From IMG/VR virus record IMGVR_UViG_3300023176_004491, positions 1 through 33,875 of that record: DNA of 33,875 nucleotides. One strand, 5' to 3'. Within the stretch, counting starts at the first letter, position 1; each line of letters begins with the position of its first letter. A program made the translations under genes and the position numbers. The notes beneath the pieces were generated by a model. That model was not told the origin of the DNA. It was given only the letters and a program-made list of their open reading frames with translations, and did not search any database. The stretch is from a virus. Shown here one piece after another: positions 2,868 through 11,499 of the stretch.

Positions 2868-4387
2868 TGATGTGGCCATTTAAGAAGCGCGATAAGAAGC
2901 CAAGCAAAGCCGCAGAAAAGCAAGCGTATGCGCTAGGCTTTGCGGAAGGCCACAAGCGGACGTACTACAACGCGGCGAAGGCTGGCAGGCGTACGTCGAA
3001 GTGGGGGGAACGCGCGAGCTCTGCTAACGCCGTGACCAGCGCTAACGGGCGAAAGCTCCGCGAGCGGGCGCGGCATCAGATTCGCAATAGTCCGCACGCA
3101 AATAAAGCGAAACTGATGTTTGTTTCATCGGTGGTGGGCGAAGGCATCCGGCCGCAGGTGCGGACAGGCAACCCGGAGCTCGACATTGAAGCCGAACGGC
3201 TTTGGCATGAGTGGACGAAAGTGTGCGATGCCGATGGCCGGCATGACTTCTACGGGCTTCAGCGGCTCATTGCCGGCACCATTCCCGGCGATGGCGAATG
3301 CCTGATACGGCGAAGGCCGCGCCGGACCGAAGATGGCATGTCCGTGCCGCTTCAACTTGAAGTTCTCGAGGCCGATTACCTAGACGAAAGCCGGACCGAT
3401 ATGGTGGGTCGTGGTCGCATTGTTCAAGGCGTGGAGTTCAACGCGCTAGGGCGGCGGGTGGCATACTGGCTCTTCAAGTACCATCCGCACGATGTGAGCA
3501 GCCCAAGCAATTCGATGATGGGCATCACATCAAGCCGAATCCGCGCGAGCGAGATTGCCCACGTCTACTATTGCGACCGACCTGGCCAAGCTCGAGGCGT
3601 GCCTTGGCTGGCACCGGTCATGATGCTCTTGGAAGACCTTGAAGCATACGTTGACGCGGAAGTGCTCCGCAAGCGCGTGGAAGCCTGCATGGTGGGTATC
3701 TACAAGGGAGATCTTCAGCATTGGGCGCCGGCCTATGACGGTGAGACCGGAGACATTGAAAGCGTCCAACCGATTCGCGATGCCGATGGCGTGCCGATGG
3801 GCGATCTCCAACCTGGCGAGATTTACCACATCGACCACGAAGCGGACCTGAGCATTCACCAACCATCGGTTGTGACAGGTATTGAAGAGTTCTTACGAGT
3901 CACGCAACGGAGCATCGCCACCGGGCTCGGTATGACGTATGAACTTTTGGCCGGCGACTTGTCCAAGGTCAACTTCTCGAGCATCCGCGCCGGAAACATT
4001 GAATGGCGCCGCTTGGCGCGCCAGCTCGCGCAAGGTCTCATCGTGCGTCAGGTATGCGAGCCGGTGTGGCGCTGGTGGCTATCGATGGCCATTGCTTCCG
4101 GTGCTTTGCCCGAGGGCGTTGAATATCGGGTTGATTGGATTGCGCCGCATCATGAAGAGATCGACCGCGTGAAAGACCTCCAAGCCGACGTGCTTGGTCT
4201 TTCTAGCGGTCTCTACACCATGAGCGAGACGCTGAAGCGACGTGGGAAAGACTTTGACCAACATGTTGAGGAATTGGCCAATGAACGCGAGCGCCTTGGC
4301 GCCGATGGCGTGGCTTTGGATTGGCTACCAGAAGAAGAGCCACCGGCCGAAGACGCTGCGGTAACGGCCATCGAAGGCGTGGCATAG
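2867..4387 (+). CDS. Portal protein, lambda gpB family
   Basis: A 506-residue protein, close to lambda gpB (533). It forms the dodecameric ring at the capsid vertex through which DNA enters. The N-terminus is basic and tyrosine-rich. The family signature around residues 60-90 (RARHQIRNSPHANKAKL) is followed by VVGEGIRPQV. The central part carries DGECLIRR and the late stem region has GMTYELLAGDLSKVNFSSIR, a strongly conserved lambda-type portal motif. The C-terminus is acidic (EEEPPAED), as in gpB, which is trimmed in lambda; trimming here is only a possibility. The gene is coupled upstream to the gpW-like gene and its TAG overlaps the GTG of the next gene. Confidence 0.95.
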   Translation: MMWPFKKRDKKPSKAAEKQAYALGFAEGHKRTYYNAAKAGRRTSKWGERASSANAVTSANGRKLRERARHQIRNSPHANKAKLMFVSSVVGEGIRPQVRTGNPELDIEAERLWHEWTKVCDADGRHDFYGLQRLIAGTIPGDGECLIRRRPRRTEDGMSVPLQLEVLEADYLDESRTDMVGRGRIVQGVEFNALGRRVAYWLFKYHPHDVSSPSNSMMGITSSRIRASEIAHVYYCDRPGQARGVPWLAPVMMLLEDLEAYVDAEVLRKRVEACMVGIYKGDLQHWAPAYDGETGDIESVQPIRDADGVPMGDLQPGEIYHIDHEADLSIHQPSVVTGIEEFLRVTQRSIATGLGMTYELLAGDLSKVNFSSIRAGNIEWRRLARQLAQGLIVRQVCEPVWRWWLSMAIASGALPEGVEYRVDWIAPHHEEIDRVKDLQADVLGLSSGLYTMSETLKRRGKDFDQHVEELANERERLGADGVALDWLPEEEPPAEDAAVTAIEGVA

Positions 4388-6306
4388 TGGCTGACTGTAT
4401 CGAAAGCAGCATCGTGGAAGTTCCGGTGGTAGTGTCCACCGTGGGCAAGCCGGTGGTGTGCTCTTCGGTACAGGTGGCCGGTGGCCCGGTTGCGGTTGGA
4501 ACGGTTGGCGATACCACAAGCAAGGTCATCGTGGACCGCTACGTGGTGAACTACACGCAACCCGGACCGGTTTATGCTGGCACCGGATTGACCAAGACCG
4601 GCAGCACCATCGATGTCAATGCGGCCAACGCTTCAATCATCGTCAACCCTGACGATATCGAAGTGGGCTACGGTGGCACGCTTGATGTCCAGCCGCTTGG
4701 AGCGGTGGACGCTGGTGCGAACGACCAGGCCGCGCGCATCGACCATCGCCACAACCACGGCGACCTAAGCGCGGAGCTCGCCACGCATCATACGGCAAGC
4801 CAAGTATCGGTATCTGGCACATATCCCGAGATAGGAAGCCCCGGCGACGTTGAAGCCGCGCTGGCGCAGATTGACCTTGTGGCCGGCAGCATCGGCCAGA
4901 CTGACACGGTGGCCGGTGCTAACGGAGTGCAAAACACCGGCAATGATGTCAATGCGGTTATTGAGCCGATTTATGGCACAACCGCGAACACGGTTACCGA
5001 AGGCAATGACCCAAGGCTAAGCGACGGGCGAGCTCCGATCGGGCCGGCTGGTGGCCAGCTCGCCGGAACGTATCCGAATCCCACGGTGGTTGATGGTGCT
5101 GATGGTTCGGCCATCCACGATGACATAGCGGGCGAGATTGCGGCTATTGCGTTGAAAGCCGTGCCAGGCGCTTCGGATGTGCTAGTCATCGAAGACGCTT
5201 CAGCGGCGAACGCAAAGAAGCGCATCACCATTGGTTCGCTTCCAACTCCCGCGCCAGGGGGCCAGACGGATACCGTGACCGGTGCCAATGGCGTCCAAAA
5301 CACCGGCGACAACATCAACGCCGTGCTCGAGCCAGTCTTTGGCGCGGTGGCTAACACCGTGACCGAGGGCAACGATCCAAGGCTAAGCGATGCCCGTATT
5401 CCCACCGGGGCAGCCGGTGGCGAGCTCGCCGGAACGTATCCGAACCCGACGGTGGTGGATGGCGCCGATGGTTCGGCCATCCATCGGAACTTGAGCGGCG
5501 AAATAGCGACCATACCGACCAAGGCCACGCCAACCGGCGCGGACCTTTTAGTGATTGAAGACGCGGCAGCGGCGAACGCAAAGAAGAGCATCACGCTTGC
5601 TTCTTTGCCGTATCCAGCGCCAGGCGGCCAGACCGATACCGTGGCCGGCGCCAATGGCATAACGAATAGCGGCGACAACATCAACGCCGTGCTCGAGCCG
5701 ATTTATGGCTCAACCGCTAACACGGTCACCGAAGGCAATGATGCCCGGTTGAGTGATGCGCGCATTCCCACCGGTCCGGCTGGTGGCCAGCTTGCCGGCA
5801 CGTACCCTAATCCCACGGTGGTAGATGGCGCCGATGGTTCGGCCATCCACGATGACATTGCGGGTGAGATTGCAGCTATCGCGACCAAGGCTACGCCTGT
5901 GGCGGCTGATCTTCTCATCATCGAAGACAGCGCAGCCGGCAACGCAAAGAAGGCCATCACGGTCGGCTCTTTGCCTGGTGGCGGTGGTGGCATCACGGAG
6001 CCGCAGCACAAAGCGCTTCGAGACCTCATCCATTTCATCGACGATGGTCCGGCTGACGGGTTCCCAAGCGGAGCGGTTAAGGACGTAACTTACAGCGGAG
6101 CTTTCCCCACCGGGGTCGATTGGTGGGAAGACGCCACGCGCACGCAACGTATTGTTGACCTGGCCATCACGTACAGCGGCGCTTTCCCCACTTCGGAGCA
6201 GTGGCGCATGTATGACACTGATGGCGTGACTGTGTTGGTGACGCTGACGGATGCCATAACGTATGCCGGCGCTTTCGAGACCTCCCGAACCAGGACGTGG
6301 GTGTGA
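4387..6306 (+). CDS. Repeat-containing fibre-like structural protein
   Basis: A 639-residue protein starting at GTG 4387, which overlaps the portal stop. Residues 1-169 hold an N-terminal head with RIDHRHNHGD, a histidine loop common in phage fibres. Residues 170-535 are three tandem modules of exactly 122 residues, each with NTVTEGND-RLSDAR, GGQLAGTYPNPTVVDGADGS and VIEDAAAANAKK-type motifs. Residues 536-639 carry three short TYSGAFPT-like strands ending in ETSRTRTWV. NTVTEGND-RLSD and AGTYPNPT are recurrent in phage tail and neck fibres. The place between portal and capsid genes is not the lambda or Mu position of a tail fibre, so a head- or neck-attached fibre is inferred. No catalytic domain was seen. 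Confidence 0.8.
   Translation: MADCIESSIVEVPVVVSTVGKPVVCSSVQVAGGPVAVGTVGDTTSKVIVDRYVVNYTQPGPVYAGTGLTKTGSTIDVNAANASIIVNPDDIEVGYGGTLDVQPLGAVDAGANDQAARIDHRHNHGDLSAELATHHTASQVSVSGTYPEIGSPGDVEAALAQIDLVAGSIGQTDTVAGANGVQNTGNDVNAVIEPIYGTTANTVTEGNDPRLSDGRAPIGPAGGQLAGTYPNPTVVDGADGSAIHDDIAGEIAAIALKAVPGASDVLVIEDASAANAKKRITIGSLPTPAPGGQTDTVTGANGVQNTGDNINAVLEPVFGAVANTVTEGNDPRLSDARIPTGAAGGELAGTYPNPTVVDGADGSAIHRNLSGEIATIPTKATPTGADLLVIEDAAAANAKKSITLASLPYPAPGGQTDTVAGANGITNSGDNINAVLEPIYGSTANTVTEGNDARLSDARIPTGPAGGQLAGTYPNPTVVDGADGSAIHDDIAGEIAAIATKATPVAADLLIIEDSAAGNAKKAITVGSLPGGGGGITEPQHKALRDLIHFIDDGPADGFPSGAVKDVTYSGAFPTGVDWWEDATRTQRIVDLAITYSGAFPTSEQWRMYDTDGVTVLVTLTDAITYAGAFETSRTRTWV
4894..5991 (+). repeat. Three tandem 366-bp in-frame repeats
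   Basis: Units run 4894-5259, 5260-5625 and 5626-5991. Each begins GGCCAGAC and is exactly 366 bp, so no codon has been gained or lost among the copies. The encoded copies are very similar in the AGTYPNPTVVDGADGSAIH core and more variable in the segment just after it (DDIAGEIAAI against RNLSGEIATI). Synonymous differences are scattered throughout, so this is not a very recent duplication. The rigid length suggests that each module is a folding unit of a fibre shaft. Unit number could vary between relatives by recombination. Confidence 0.9.
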
Positions 6307-6572
6307 TGAGTCGCGGTCCCGCTAGCGTGCTGGTCGATGCCGATGGGAACGTGGTTGGCGTTGTGCAAGATGGCGAAGTCTATCGCGTTCAAGTGCAAGC
6401 GACCGTGGCGAGCTCGGACGGTGCAACCGCTGAAGTCAACACGGATGGAAGCCGGCAAGCGCTGGCCATCGCTCAACCTGAGCTTGTGGCTATAGCCTAC
6501 CGAATAGAAGCACAAATGGATGAGCTTTTGCGCCACATGCGCAGCATCACCGGAGAGGAAGACCCGTTATGA
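6306..6572 (+). CDS. Small protein of the capsid-fibre cassette
   Basis: An 88-residue protein of unknown function. ATG 6306 overlaps the previous stop as TGATG; a GTG nine bases upstream is possible but less likely. The first half is beta-rich (SVLVDADGNVVGVVQDGEVYRVQVQATV) and the second half is a predicted helix (VAIAYRIEAQMDELLRHMRSI). A small strand domain followed by a helix suits a trimerising adaptor between a fibre and the particle, but this is inference from shape only. Its stop overlaps the following gene. Confidence 0.7.
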   Translation: MSRGPASVLVDADGNVVGVVQDGEVYRVQVQATVASSDGATAEVNTDGSRQALAIAQPELVAIAYRIEAQMDELLRHMRSITGEEDPL

Positions 6573-7168
6573 GTACATTGCTGAAAGACGGCACTGGCGG
6601 CGGGTTTCTCGCCAAAGTGACCGCCAACAATCGCTTGGCCAGCGAGGCCATCGTCATTACCGGCGAAGACGACTCTATCCGCGTTGGCGATGGGTGGCAG
6701 ATATCAAGCAAGCCGGTTTCGTTTACCAGCTCGACCGCTTCAGCCATCCTCTACATCAAAAATGGCGACTCCAGAAACTTCGTGCTTGACCGGGCGGTGC
6801 TCGTTTTGGGAACGGCCACCGGTGGTTCTGGCGATTGGACATTTCGCGTCATGCGCAACCCTGAAGAGACTGGAACGATTGTTACCAATGCCTTGACGGC
6901 TGGGATTAGCAATTCAAATCACGGCTCAAGCAAACAGCCGAGCGGCCTTCTCTATCGCGGTGTTCAGGGGGATACGGTAGACCTGGCTGGCATTGCGGGT
7001 GGTGCTCCCTTGCCAATCCAGCAAGCATCGAATCGAACGATTTTTCCGCTTGGTAGGCAACTGCCTACAGGCACCAGCATAGCGTTTGAGCTTACGCCAC
7101 CGGCAGGCACAACGGCCGCGACAGCCGTCTTGGTCACGCATTGGTACTATGACGTTGCGGGGCTTTAG
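6569..7168 (+). CDS. Candidate capsid decoration/fibre protein, copy 1 of a module family
   Basis: A 199-residue, beta-rich protein with no recognised enzyme motif. The first 28 residues (LLKDGTGGGFLAKVTANNRL) match the starts of the next two genes, defining a shared module of pattern K-D-G-x-G-x-G-x-x-A-x-V-x-x-x-N-x-L. The remainder alternates short strands with Gly/Thr/Ser-rich turns and ends LVTHWYYDVAGL, consistent with a jelly-roll or immunoglobulin-like tip. It starts inside the previous stop (TATGA) after a purine-rich GGAGAGGAAG. A structural role is inferred from composition and position. Confidence 0.75.
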   Translation: MSTLLKDGTGGGFLAKVTANNRLASEAIVITGEDDSIRVGDGWQISSKPVSFTSSTASAILYIKNGDSRNFVLDRAVLVLGTATGGSGDWTFRVMRNPEETGTIVTNALTAGISNSNHGSSKQPSGLLYRGVQGDTVDLAGIAGGAPLPIQQASNRTIFPLGRQLPTGTSIAFELTPPAGTTAATAVLVTHWYYDVAGL

Positions 7169-7177
7169 GAGTTAATC

Positions 7178-7750
7178 ATGGCAAAAATACAAGACGCTAC
7201 CGGCAACGGCTTTGAAGCCGGGGTGGATTCAACCAACCGGCTATTGGTTGAAGCCGTCAACTTGGTTGTCCGTGAAGAGGCGGTTTTGCTTGGCGCATCT
7301 TTTGAGCTTGGCACGCTTCAGACGCTTACGGTTGACACTGAACTAGGCTTGATCTTCGTTAAGAACAATGGCGACCGAACCATCATCATCGACCGTTTCG
7401 AGTTTAGCGGAACGGCTTCAACCGGTGGTGCAGGCTCCACGATGCTCTTGACGCTTTACAAAGGTGCGGCGTTGACTAATGGAACAGCGAGTGCAGCGGT
7501 AAACGCCAATTTTGCCTCAGCTTTGACGCTTGACGCCGACATTGAAACCGGCAACGGCTCGACCAGCACGGTGAGCGGTGGGACGGCGTTTGGCTCCAGC
7601 TATATCGCCTTTGAAGGTGAAAGCACTTTCGACGGGCCGTGGGCTTTGCCGCGTGGCTCGCAAATTGTCATGGCTGCAACGCCACCTTCCGGTAATACCT
7701 CGATGGGCTTCACGGTGCGAATCTTGACGCACTTGCAGCGTTCTGAATGA
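7178..7750 (+). CDS. Candidate capsid decoration/fibre protein, copy 2
   Basis: A 190-residue protein preceded by a clear TAGGAG ribosome-binding site. Its start (KIQDATGNGFEAGVDSTNRL) matches the N-terminal module of the genes on either side. The rest is strand-rich (GLIFVKNNGDRTIIIDRF, then STMLLTLYKG and SSYIAFEGESTF). Its middle (FVKNNGDRTIIIDRFEF) resembles the equivalent stretch of the previous gene (YIKNGDSRNFVLDRAVL), so these two appear to be full-length paralogues. Its role in the virion is inferred, with no catalytic residues apparent. Confidence 0.75.
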   Translation: MAKIQDATGNGFEAGVDSTNRLLVEAVNLVVREEAVLLGASFELGTLQTLTVDTELGLIFVKNNGDRTIIIDRFEFSGTASTGGAGSTMLLTLYKGAALTNGTASAAVNANFASALTLDADIETGNGSTSTVSGGTAFGSSYIAFEGESTFDGPWALPRGSQIVMAATPPSGNTSMGFTVRILTHLQRSE

Positions 7751-8394
7751 GCCTAAAAACGACCATCAAGGACGGCAAAGGCACCGGCCGCACGGCATCT
7801 GTGACGGATGCCAATGCTTTGCTCGTTTCGGTCTTGCCGCAAACATCCAAGGGCATACCACCGGATGATTTGGCGTCGTTGCGGCAGCTTCGGGAGTTTT
7901 TTGTTGATAGCGTGGGCAGCGAGGACCAGCGCGTTGATGGGTCTGTTTCGGCCGTCGAGTTCTCTGTGAGTGCACAGCTTGGCATTACGCGCTGGGTGAC
8001 CGGCTTTCGGTTGATTATTCAAGGCCAGAATACCGATATGGGAAGCAATGACTTTCGGCGGTATTCTGCCACATCGGGCGGCTTGACTAACGGTGTGGAG
8101 ATTGAAGCCGTTCAAAGCGGTGTGACGACGGTTATCACAGGAGCCGGAGCAGTAACCGATATGGGGCAGTACCTGCGCTATGCTGATGACTTCCTAAACA
8201 TCATCTCGGCTATATCAGCCAACGTAGACTATCTGCATTTTGACTTCAGCTTTGACCAGCCGGTTGTTTTGACGGAGGGCACAAGCGATAGGCTGGTCAT
8301 CCGCATCAATGACGACCTCACGGCCGCTTACACAACACCTTCAACCGATACCGCACAATTTGCCGTAGCTCGAGGATATCAAGAAAGCGTATGA
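7747..8394 (+). CDS. Candidate capsid decoration/fibre protein, copy 3 with a different C-terminal domain
   Basis: A 215-residue protein whose first 25 residues (TIKDGKGTGRTASVTDANAL) carry the same module as the two genes before it. The rest is unlike them: a helix near PPDDLASLRQLREFFVDS, then a strand-rich domain with FRLIIQGQNTDMGSNDFRRY and YLHFDFSFDQPVV. This looks like one anchor sequence attached to a different outer domain. It overlaps the neighbouring genes on both sides by four bases, so the set is probably made from one transcript. No family was recognised for the outer domain. Confidence 0.75.
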   Translation: MSLKTTIKDGKGTGRTASVTDANALLVSVLPQTSKGIPPDDLASLRQLREFFVDSVGSEDQRVDGSVSAVEFSVSAQLGITRWVTGFRLIIQGQNTDMGSNDFRRYSATSGGLTNGVEIEAVQSGVTTVITGAGAVTDMGQYLRYADDFLNIISAISANVDYLHFDFSFDQPVVLTEGTSDRLVIRINDDLTAAYTTPSTDTAQFAVARGYQESV

Positions 8395-8801
8395 CGACCA
8401 TCTATCGGCCGGTAGAAAGAAGCGCGCCCTATGCAACTGGCGCCGATGGCGAGCGGGCTGAGTTCTGGGGCTTCCTTTACGGGGTGCCAGGACAAGGAAC
8501 ATACAGCTTCGACGAACGGCTAGACGAAGACATCAAGCTAAATGGTGGTTTCCATTGGTGCCGGGGTGCCGAAATAGGTGACACGGTGAGCTTTTCAATC
8601 ATCGACAAAAGCCAGCCACAGGAAGTGGTTTTGGCCGAATATGTCCAAGAGATGCCGCTTGCGCCTTGGGACCATCAAGCCGACCTTACCGCGCCAACCG
8701 TGGCCAGCCTTCCGGCCGGAGTGTTCCTGCGGCTCACGGTAAAACATGCGGCAGATACCCCAATGGTTTTGGGGGTGACTTATAAGTGCTTCGTTCAATG
8801 A
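8391..8801 (+). CDS. Beta-rich hypothetical protein at the end of the decoration cassette
   Basis: A 136-residue protein that lacks the shared N-terminal module. It contains EFWGFLYGVPGQGTYSFDER, then a run of strands around GDTVSFSIID and PAGVFLRLTVKHAADTPMVL, with two cysteines far apart. The composition is that of a small beta-sandwich. It is coupled to the previous gene by ATGA and is the last gene before the capsid gene. A structural role is likely from context only. Confidence 0.65.
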   Translation: MTTIYRPVERSAPYATGADGERAEFWGFLYGVPGQGTYSFDERLDEDIKLNGGFHWCRGAEIGDTVSFSIIDKSQPQEVVLAEYVQEMPLAPWDHQADLTAPTVASLPAGVFLRLTVKHAADTPMVLGVTYKCFVQ

Positions 8802-8831: not shown

Positions 8832-10793
8832 ATGGCAATGGAAAACCGCAAAACATTGGCTTTCGATATGCTCGCGCGTTTCGCGCCTGAGTCTTACGAT
8901 TCAGCGGAGAACACGGTGGACCTTATTTGGTCAACTGGTGCGCGCGGATTGCGAAACTCTTGGACTCGAGGCGACTACTATGAATCGCTGAGCATGGAAC
9001 CGGGAGCAGTGCGGCTTGAACGGCTGAACCGTGGCGCACCTTTGCTTGAAGCGCACGACGGCGGAAGCAACGCAAGCGTCATCGGAGTTGTCATTGAGGG
9101 CAGCGCGCGCATCGAAGAGGGCACCGGGCGTGCCACTGTGCGGCTAAGCACGGCTCCAAGCGCAGCCGATACGGTCCACAAGATTCGCGAAGGTGTTCTG
9201 AAGAACGTATCGGTGGGATATCTGGTTCACCAATATGAGATTGAGCAGCGCGACGATGGGCCAGATGAATACATGGCCATTGATTGGGAGCCATATGAGG
9301 TTTCAATCGTACCTATGCCGTTTGATGCTGCGGCGCAGGTACGAAACTTTGAAAGCATCACACCGGAAAAGCCGGAAACATCAACCAAAGAGCGGAGGTT
9401 AGGCTCAATGAAAGAGCAGCAAGAGCACAACGCTGAACCGGCCGAAACGGTGAACGTTGTTGATATTGAAAAGCGGGCAGCGGTGCGCGAGCGGTCGCGT
9501 ATCGCGAACATCCGAGCGGCAGCGGCCAAGCTTAACATCGAGGGCGAATCCGTTGAGAAGCTGATTGCCGATGGTGCCAGCGAAGACGCAGCGCGGGCGG
9601 CGTTGATTGACCTCCATGTCGAGGCTAATGAGCGCAATGAGCCGGAGACCAGCCAGCACATCAGCGGCGGTGGGCTTGACGAGCTCGACCACCGCGTTGG
9701 AGGCATCGCGGATGCGCTCTTGCATCGCTGCAAGCCTGGCAAATTTGAGCTTTCTGAGCGGGGCAAGGCATACCGCTACAGCTCGCTGATGGACATCGCC
9801 ACGATGGCGGCGGAAGCCAGCGGCCAGCGCACGGCCGGATTGAGCAAGCAAGAAATTGTGGCTCGAGCTCTGAAGACCCGTGGCGCCTTTGCCACGACCG
9901 ACTTCGCTGACCTGATGGTCTCCACGGCTCGCCGCATTTTGCGTCAAGCGTATGTGGAAGCCCCGGCAAACTATCAGATGCTTGCCGGCCGTCGCGTCTC
10001 GCCTGACTTCAAGGCAACCCGCGAGCTCATCTTTGGCGGCATGGGCCAGCCGCAAGAGATTCGAGAGGGTGGTGAGTTCCGCCACGCCACCGAGACCGTT
10101 GAGGGGGCTGAGTGGTCGCTTTCGACTTACGGCCAAAAGATGAACCTGACTTGGCAAGCCATCATCAATGACGACCTTGAAGCCTTTGCGCGCAAGACCG
10201 CGCAATTCGGCGCGGCGGCTCGACGGCTTGAGAATTCGCTTTTTTATGATCTGCTTTTGAGCAATCCGGTTGCCTACGATGGCGCGCCCATGTTCAGCGC
10301 AGCTCGCGGAAACGTCCTGAGCTCGACCACCACGCCGGCAGCGGCAGATCCGAGCAAAGACCAGTATGGCTTCATGCGTTCGATTCTTGGCCGACAGACC
10401 GGCCTTGATGCGAACGAAGACCTTGAGCTTGAGCCCCGATATGTGGTGTGTGGTTTCGACCAGGCCACCAACGTCGAAAGCCTCACGCTTCAGACGGTGC
10501 CGGATACGGTCCAGAATGCCATCCCCGGCGCCTTCCGGAGCTATATGCCAGTGGTGAGCGCGCGTATCGACCGGACCGATGGAGACGTGTACTTCTTCGC
10601 CGCTGACCCCATGCAGATTGAGTCTTTCATCTATGCCCACCTTCAGGGCATGGAGAATGGGCCAATCGTCGAAGAGATGGACAGCTGGAACACGCTGGGC
10701 GTCGAGTGGCGTTCTTACAATTGCTTTGCAGTGGCGTGCATCGACTTCCGTGGCTGGGTCATCAATGACCAGAACTCGACCATCGTACCTTAA
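8832..10793 (+). CDS. Prohead protease-scaffold-major capsid protein fusion
   Basis: A 653-residue polypeptide. Residues 1-172 are an HK97-type prohead protease: the catalytic His lies in LLEAHDGG (H75), the Ser in KNVSVGY (S127), and the acidic partner is probably in DWEPYEVSIVPMPFD. Residues about 175-290 are charged and helical, suiting a scaffold or delta domain. From about residue 300 a major capsid protein of the HK97 fold follows (SLSTYGQKMNLTWQAIINDD, then RRLENSLFYDLLLSN), ending with an E-loop-poor C-terminal domain. In HK97-type assembly the protease removes the scaffold and itself. Protease-capsid fusions are known in Mu-like phages. An internal start (separate entry) could supply capsid without protease. 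Confidence 0.93.
   Translation: MAMENRKTLAFDMLARFAPESYDSAENTVDLIWSTGARGLRNSWTRGDYYESLSMEPGAVRLERLNRGAPLLEAHDGGSNASVIGVVIEGSARIEEGTGRATVRLSTAPSAADTVHKIREGVLKNVSVGYLVHQYEIEQRDDGPDEYMAIDWEPYEVSIVPMPFDAAAQVRNFESITPEKPETSTKERRLGSMKEQQEHNAEPAETVNVVDIEKRAAVRERSRIANIRAAAAKLNIEGESVEKLIADGASEDAARAALIDLHVEANERNEPETSQHISGGGLDELDHRVGGIADALLHRCKPGKFELSERGKAYRYSSLMDIATMAAEASGQRTAGLSKQEIVARALKTRGAFATTDFADLMVSTARRILRQAYVEAPANYQMLAGRRVSPDFKATRELIFGGMGQPQEIREGGEFRHATETVEGAEWSLSTYGQKMNLTWQAIINDDLEAFARKTAQFGAAARRLENSLFYDLLLSNPVAYDGAPMFSAARGNVLSSTTTPAAADPSKDQYGFMRSILGRQTGLDANEDLELEPRYVVCGFDQATNVESLTLQTVPDTVQNAIPGAFRSYMPVVSARIDRTDGDVYFFAADPMQIESFIYAHLQGMENGPIVEEMDSWNTLGVEWRSYNCFAVACIDFRGWVINDQNSTIVP
9394..9410 (+). 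promoter_or_regulatory. Internal Shine-Dalgarno and in-frame ATG inside the capsid fusion gene
   Basis: GGAGGT at 9394-9399 is followed after eight bases by ATG at 9408, in frame with the fusion gene (codon 193). It falls exactly between the protease domain and the scaffold-like region. Initiation here would give a 461-residue scaffold-capsid protein beginning MKEQQEHNAEPAE. The six-base match to the 16S anti-Shine-Dalgarno is among the best in the window. The arrangement parallels lambda Nu3, which starts inside gene C in the same frame. Use in vivo is inferred. Confidence 0.7.
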
Positions 10794-10805
10794 GGAGCGA
10801 CAAAC

Positions 10806-11144
10806 ATGAGCACCAACCAAGTACAGAAAGGCGAAGTCATTGAAGTGACGGCGCCGTATGCGCTGACCGGCAACGATGGTTGCCTTGTGGGGGTCTGCCT
10901 TTTTGGCGTGGCCGTCACCGATGCGGCCATTGCAACCCAGGTGAGCTTGTGCGTCACCGGTGTCTTCGACATCGCTAAGCAAGCGGCACTTGCCATCAAT
11001 GCCGGAGATCCCATCTACTGGGATGACGCGGCTCGCGAGTGCGACACCACCAACACCAACCTTCTGGTCGGTGTGGCGATTGCGGATGCGGCGGGAGCCG
11101 ACACCACCGTGCGCGTTCGCCTCTACGGCGCTGGCCATCCGTAA
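10806..11144 (+). CDS. Capsid decoration (cement) protein, DUF2190-like
   Basis: A 112-residue protein with a strong ribosome-binding site (TAAGGAG) just before it. It has the DUF2190 pattern: an N-terminal strand start (QVQKGEVIEVTAPYALTGNDG), a middle GVAVTDAAIATQVSLCVTGVF and a late INAGDPIYWDDAARECDTTN, followed by LLVGVAIADAAGADTTVRVRL. Members of this family sit directly after major capsid genes and stabilise the mature shell. The strong binding site agrees with a protein needed in hundreds of copies. Confidence 0.85.
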   Translation: MSTNQVQKGEVIEVTAPYALTGNDGCLVGVCLFGVAVTDAAIATQVSLCVTGVFDIAKQAALAINAGDPIYWDDAARECDTTNTNLLVGVAIADAAGADTTVRVRLYGAGHP

Positions 11145-11154
11145 AGGCTGACCA

Positions 11155-11499
11155 GTGACCTGGGTTGACACCGTAACGCCGGAAAACGGCATCGCTGATT
11201 GCGTGTATCGTGCAACGCGCGACACCTTTGGCGATGCTGTGAGCTACACCCCGTGTAGCACCGGCGTTGCGGAGTCAATCCAAGCCGTCTTCTTTGAATT
11301 GCCGGTTGATGAGCAGCTTGAAGCGCTTGGCGTTGAGCAATCGGCCAGCGGGCCGATGTTGCGGATTCGCGGTGGAGACCTCACGGTTGAACCGCAACGC
11401 GGCGACCGCGTTGAGCTTCGCGGAAAGCGTTTTGAAGTGGTGGAGGCTGAAGACGATAACCGTGGCGGCTTCAAGGCCATACTTCTCTTGGTGAGCTGA
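11155..11499 (+). CDS. Head-tail completion/stopper-type protein
   Basis: A 114-residue protein starting at GTG 11155. It has a small beta-barrel pattern: LRIRGGDLTVEPQRGDRVEL followed by GKRFEVVEAEDDNRGGFKAI. This resembles the lambda gpFII/ATP-binding Gifsy-2-type head-tail joining proteins. Its position, after the decoration protein and before a terminator-like gene, is where lambda-like and Mu-like phages place head completion proteins. The exact family was not confirmed. The stop overlaps the next start as TGATG. Confidence 0.65.
   Translation: MTWVDTVTPENGIADCVYRATRDTFGDAVSYTPCSTGVAESIQAVFFELPVDEQLEALGVEQSASGPMLRIRGGDLTVEPQRGDRVELRGKRFEVVEAEDDNRGGFKAILLLVS

Follow-up and report, generated by a model that had tools for sequence, protein, structure and literature searches.

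The 33,875-nucleotide viral DNA stretch analysed here (the window) carries a single 653-residue open reading frame (ORF) at positions 8832–10793 of the plus strand, in which a prohead protease, a scaffold-like segment and a major capsid protein are fused. The sequence evidence makes it very likely that this is a two-product gene, encoding a probably scarce 653-residue protease-capsid fusion and a nested, probably abundant 461-residue scaffold-capsid protein predicted to start at an internal in-frame ATG (9408–10793, plus strand). That internal initiation splits the fusion into two products had been proposed in an earlier note on this DNA, and the proposal is supported by the conservation of a Shine-Dalgarno (SD) sequence and ATG in the linker, by constraint at synonymous sites and by agreement with the start positions of separate capsid genes in split relatives.

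The fusion gene is a member of NCBIfam NF045541 (prohead protease/major capsid fusion), scoring 544.9 bits over residues 22–645 against a cutoff of 525, and it matches PHROG 4523 (phrog_4523) with an E-value of 3e-162. Membership of the ClpP-type fusion family NF045540 was rejected (214 bits against a cutoff of 475), with the window protease being of the S78 type. Pfam places Peptidase_S78 (PF04586) at residues 80–171 and Phage_capsid_4 at residues 347–644, and in an AlphaFold model with a mean pLDDT of 85 the S78 (HK97-type) protease domain spans residues 11–167 (8862–9332, plus strand as for all segments that follow), with its His/Ser pair, H75 and S127, invariant in the homologue alignment, in keeping with NF045541. 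A single long disordered linker follows at residues 168–205 (9333–9446; pLDDT <50), which is non-conserved, with high entropy except at the SD codons and the Met, and this leads into a helical delta/scaffold-like segment at residues 209–268 (9456–9635) with helices at 209–233, 238–246 and 251–268. Residues 269–280 (9636–9671) form a second low-confidence segment in the model (low pLDDT at 270–280) and are a possible maturation cleavage region. The remainder, residues 281–653 (9672–10790), is an HK97-fold major capsid domain (PF25209, E-value 2e-37), for which Foldseek matched encapsulins and HK97-fold capsids in the PDB. Upstream of the gene, six ORFs (4321–8801) separate it from the portal gene, whereas portal and fusion are adjacent in most annotated homologues; the first of these encodes 661 residues, in which a GGxLAGTYPNPTVVDGADGSAIH repeat occurs three times, and has tail-fibre/minor-tail PHROG matches, and no PHROG match was found for the other five. 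On the minus strand, a 606-residue open frame (9405–11225) lies antisense to the capsid gene, and is probably a codon-usage effect.

Within the linker, GGAGGT at 9394–9399 (plus strand) is followed by an 8-nucleotide spacer, TAGGCTCA, and then by ATG at 9408–9410, which is in-frame codon 193 of the 653-residue ORF. The earlier note had given this arrangement exactly, and its placement of the signal at the boundary between protease and capsid was also correct, with Peptidase_S78 ending at 171 and M193 falling within linker 168–205 of the AlphaFold model. The nested segment downstream of this ATG is covered by phrog_4523 and phrog_133 matches, and a separate gene begins here in split relatives. 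With SD strength measured as the energy of the duplex formed with the 16S tail ACCUCCUUA, the SD of ATG 9408 reached -10.2 kcal/mol, which is the top value among 1186 window ATGs on both strands and is attained by none other. The fusion's own start at 8832 is far weaker, at only -4.3 kcal/mol, and the next SD in strength at an in-frame ATG within the gene is -6.3. Synonymous resampling of the eight codons upstream of ATG 9408 produced an equally strong SD in 1/300 trials. A second GGAGG-N8-ATG occurs in the same gene at 9699–9714 (ATG 9712, -9.3 kcal/mol), in the +1 frame, and the window ORF list holds no ORF of ≥80 residues starting there.

Searches of phage, IMG/VR and GTDB collections returned 175 fused ORFs, and the recovery of fused loci from three collections rules out a sequencing error or artificial fusion. 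These were reduced to 81 non-redundant homologues (<80% mutual identity, mostly ~30% identical), in which the linker was scored over 55 codons and an SD was counted at ≤ -5 kcal/mol. An in-frame ATG is present in the linker after the protease in 80/81, and an SD accompanies 72 of the 93 in-frame linker ATGs (77%). The share is 9–19% for control ATGs, at 57/655 for the capsid region, 19/101 for the protease and 14/84 for linker ATGs in the +1 frame. Counted by homologue, an SD-ATG is found in the linker in frame in 67/81, and in the other frames in 13/81 and 2/81 (Fisher p ~4e-18 for frame 0 versus +1, although kinship of the homologues overstates their independence, the linker itself being non-conserved). 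The earlier note had named homologues with no conserved binding site or ATG as evidence that would speak against internal initiation; among these 81 the ATG is near universal and SD-associated. The few exceptions also fit with initiation as judged by sequence, with L029, L168 and L169 carrying GTG with a good SD instead of ATG, and L167, from a Chitinophagaceae genome (Bacteroidota MAG), having an ATG behind an A-rich leader without SD, as does its tree neighbour L053. The absence of an SD in L167 is consistent with initiation because Bacteroidota rarely rely on SD sequences. Among IMG/VR neighbours from a single-protein search, no variation in the gene was found, the only ones being L002 and L003 with an identical protein. 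Separately, the fusion gene of a Rhodobacter MAG (L165:3659-3661) has an in-frame stop inside the capsid domain, reflecting either a pseudogene or an assembly error.

Linker length and sequence are highly variable among the homologues, and when they were aligned on the internal Met, entropy was clearly lower only at the SD codons (-4 and -3) and the Met. Such a pattern might arise by chance where purine-rich Lys, Glu and Arg linker codons lie beside a Met, as Lys/Glu codons at -4/-3 readily yield SD-like sequence and, when the eight upstream codons were resampled synonymously across homologues, the mean was already -5.2 ± 0.24 kcal/mol. However, the observed homologue mean of -6.9 kcal/mol was matched in 0/300 trials, and chance accounts neither for the frame bias of the SD-ATG carriers nor for a valley in synonymous divergence, which at codons -5 to -2 is 2.1% compared with 20% upstream and 24% downstream (shared residues in 176 closer-homologue pairs, which are non-independent). 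This valley spreads somewhat to both sides of the SD, as in ordinary start regions. Chance is thus contradicted by resampling, by frame controls, by synonymous divergence and by the ClpP-type fusions (40/42, see below), leaving it a practically negligible probability and bearing out the earlier note, which had called it unlikely and had proposed the synonymous-site comparison. The comparisons demonstrate that, as a sequence element, the internal start signal is under purifying selection and conserved among very distant relatives.

Predicted mRNA structure has its minimum right at the internal ATG, at -11.2 kcal/mol per 60 nucleotides versus about -18 nearby, which composition explains in part (GC 0.58 versus 0.62). 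Ribosome pausing at SD-like sequences has been proposed in the literature to help folding, and the SD here does lie directly after a folded domain, where it could stall elongating ribosomes and aid folding of the protease without any initiation. None-the-less, this leaves unexplained the in-frame ATG at start-codon spacing, the GTG codons with SD noted above, the low mRNA structure at the ATG and the match to the starts of separate genes, and we consider it extremely improbable.

Seventy-eight split relatives, Faecalibacterium phage FP_Epona and Dulem virus 34 among them, have a capsid gene of their own that begins, with a strong SD, at the matching position, ~28–47 codons past the protease domain, while the internal ATG of fused homologues is mostly 12–48 codons past the same domain end. 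One fused gene, L269, is nested among split ones in the capsid-domain tree and keeps GAGGAGG-ATG at +36; this is a fast tree with some long branches, and the window itself sits on a long branch, making its exact place unsure. The matching start positions of split relatives and fusions, including L269, indicate that the nested start is equivalent to that of the unfused capsid gene.

ClpP-type fusions have the same arrangement, with an in-frame SD and ATG after the ClpP domain in 40 of 42 non-redundant genes, as opposed to 16/42 and 4/42 for the two remaining frames, and with an SD on only 20/409 in-frame ATGs of the capsid part. The internal start residues are M221 in Gifsy-2, M220 in F10 and M188 in mEp460. 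In the enterobacterial subset the protein motif around the start is itself conserved, so the ClpP-type evidence is carried by the divergent members L299, L301, L305, L316, L322 and L337. The capsid-domain tree intermixes ClpP- and S78-fused genes, with at least 6–7 forced changes on this fast tree, and this mixing suggests that the protease module preceding the capsid gene has been swapped repeatedly while the nested start stays in place. By capsid domain, the ClpP-fused L303, L309 and L337 cluster with the S78-fused L006, L009, L062 and L094. Likewise, Microbacterium cluster EE fusions, whose capsid family is apparently unrelated to that of the window, carry GAGAGGAC-ATG right after the protease, and this is retained while the linker changes. 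At one ClpP-type locus (L311:2358-4529) protease and capsid lie in separate open frames where relatives are fused, either through a frameshift or as a genuine split.

These comparisons also bear on whether only the full-length fusion is made, with proteolysis parting its domains and the SD and ATG being a vestige of once-separate genes. Split relatives do exist, loss of a stop codon would leave just such a relic, and L269 resembles a recent joining. A relic should decay, yet the signal is kept in fusions that are ~30% identical and across exchanged protease types, and its SD codons are under strong synonymous constraint, making a vestige very unlikely.

We therefore return to the two-product model, in which protease and capsid genes are joined in frame and selection retains the ribosome-binding site of the capsid gene. 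Ribosomes starting at 8832 would make the 653-residue protease-linker-scaffold-capsid fusion of ~72 kDa, and those binding GGAGGT at 9394 would initiate at ATG 9408, giving a 461-residue scaffold-capsid protein of ~51 kDa, an HK97 gp5-like precursor. The short protein would probably be the bulk shell subunit, with a minority of long fusion subunits probably co-assembling via their capsid domains and so bringing the protease into the prohead, where it would cut the scaffold segments and release itself. We infer translation from 9408, dominance of the short product, co-assembly and cleavage from the features described above. Elongating ribosomes could block the internal site, which counts against the model, as do the weak SDs at the linker ATGs of L056, L058, L072 and L089. 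Furthermore, although the internal SD is stronger than that of the best conceivable upstream start in 48/76 homologues, it is weaker in 27/76, so SD strength alone gives no universal excess of the short product. These 27 would also fit an internal start that is real but minor, with the shell built mainly from the fusion and the nested product only tuning spacing or stoichiometry. In the window, however, the internal SD is much the stronger of the two, and a protease on every shell subunit would presumably crowd the prohead; we regard such a minor role as unlikely.

Several known systems resemble this gene in part. Fusions of NF045541/PHROG 4523 are of the same family, domain order and length, and are annotated as a single protein, with no second start recorded in the annotated homologues examined. 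In lambda, an in-frame internal start in protease gene C gives Nu3, a nested C-coterminal product without the protease. The earlier note's comparison with Nu3 is apt in principle, judging from the in-frame start with a ribosome-binding site inside a protease gene and the predicted C-coterminal product, but the lambda nested product is scaffold only and capsid protein E has a separate gene, whereas that of the window includes the HK97-fold capsid (Pfam, AlphaFold). HK97 gp4/gp5-like split genes, as in FP_Epona and Dulem virus 34, likewise have a protease, a scaffold-capsid protein and a similarly placed capsid start with strong SD, but a stop codon lies between them and there is no protease-capsid fusion. 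The Gifsy-2 type ClpP-scaffold-capsid tripartite gene (NF045540) combines the same three functions in one gene and has the SD and ATG after the protease, although its protease fold differs from S78. In herpesviruses, UL26.5 is an abundant nested in-frame product sharing the C-terminus of the UL26 protease-scaffold fusion; it comes from a separate transcript and is scaffold rather than shell, while the nested product of the window includes the shell protein.

Fusion genes of this kind and internal initiation within a protease gene, as in lambda C/Nu3, are thus already known. Protease-scaffold-capsid fusions occur in small actinobacteriophages (PMC7302621), and in the passages of that description examined no second start is mentioned. 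Likewise, the open literature searched yielded no report that such fusions initiate the major capsid protein internally, although an earlier description, for instance in work on Gifsy-2, may exist. On sequence evidence, nested starts are typical of a known fusion family as a whole, which goes beyond what the earlier note had claimed for one gene. More broadly, it is likely that tailed-phage protease-capsid fusions, spanning two or more unrelated protease folds and hosts of several phyla, are generally two-product genes, with a nested start for the shell subunit and with the fusion serving, in a Gag-Pol-like manner, as a minority subunit that directs the protease to the prohead.

Fused genes pose a stoichiometry puzzle, as each shell is built from hundreds of capsid subunits but should in principle require few proteases, and a conserved internal start would solve this simply. 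The internal start also gives a testable model for how proheads receive the protease and in what dose. Occurrence of the same solution with two proteases and in unrelated actinobacterial phages suggests that protease-capsid fusions require the nested start and do not carry it by accident. Annotations across a large family probably give the wrong N-terminus and mass for the main capsid precursor, which touches proteomics, structural work and annotation pipelines, and if the model is true generally, annotating these capsid genes with a single product would leave a systematic gap.
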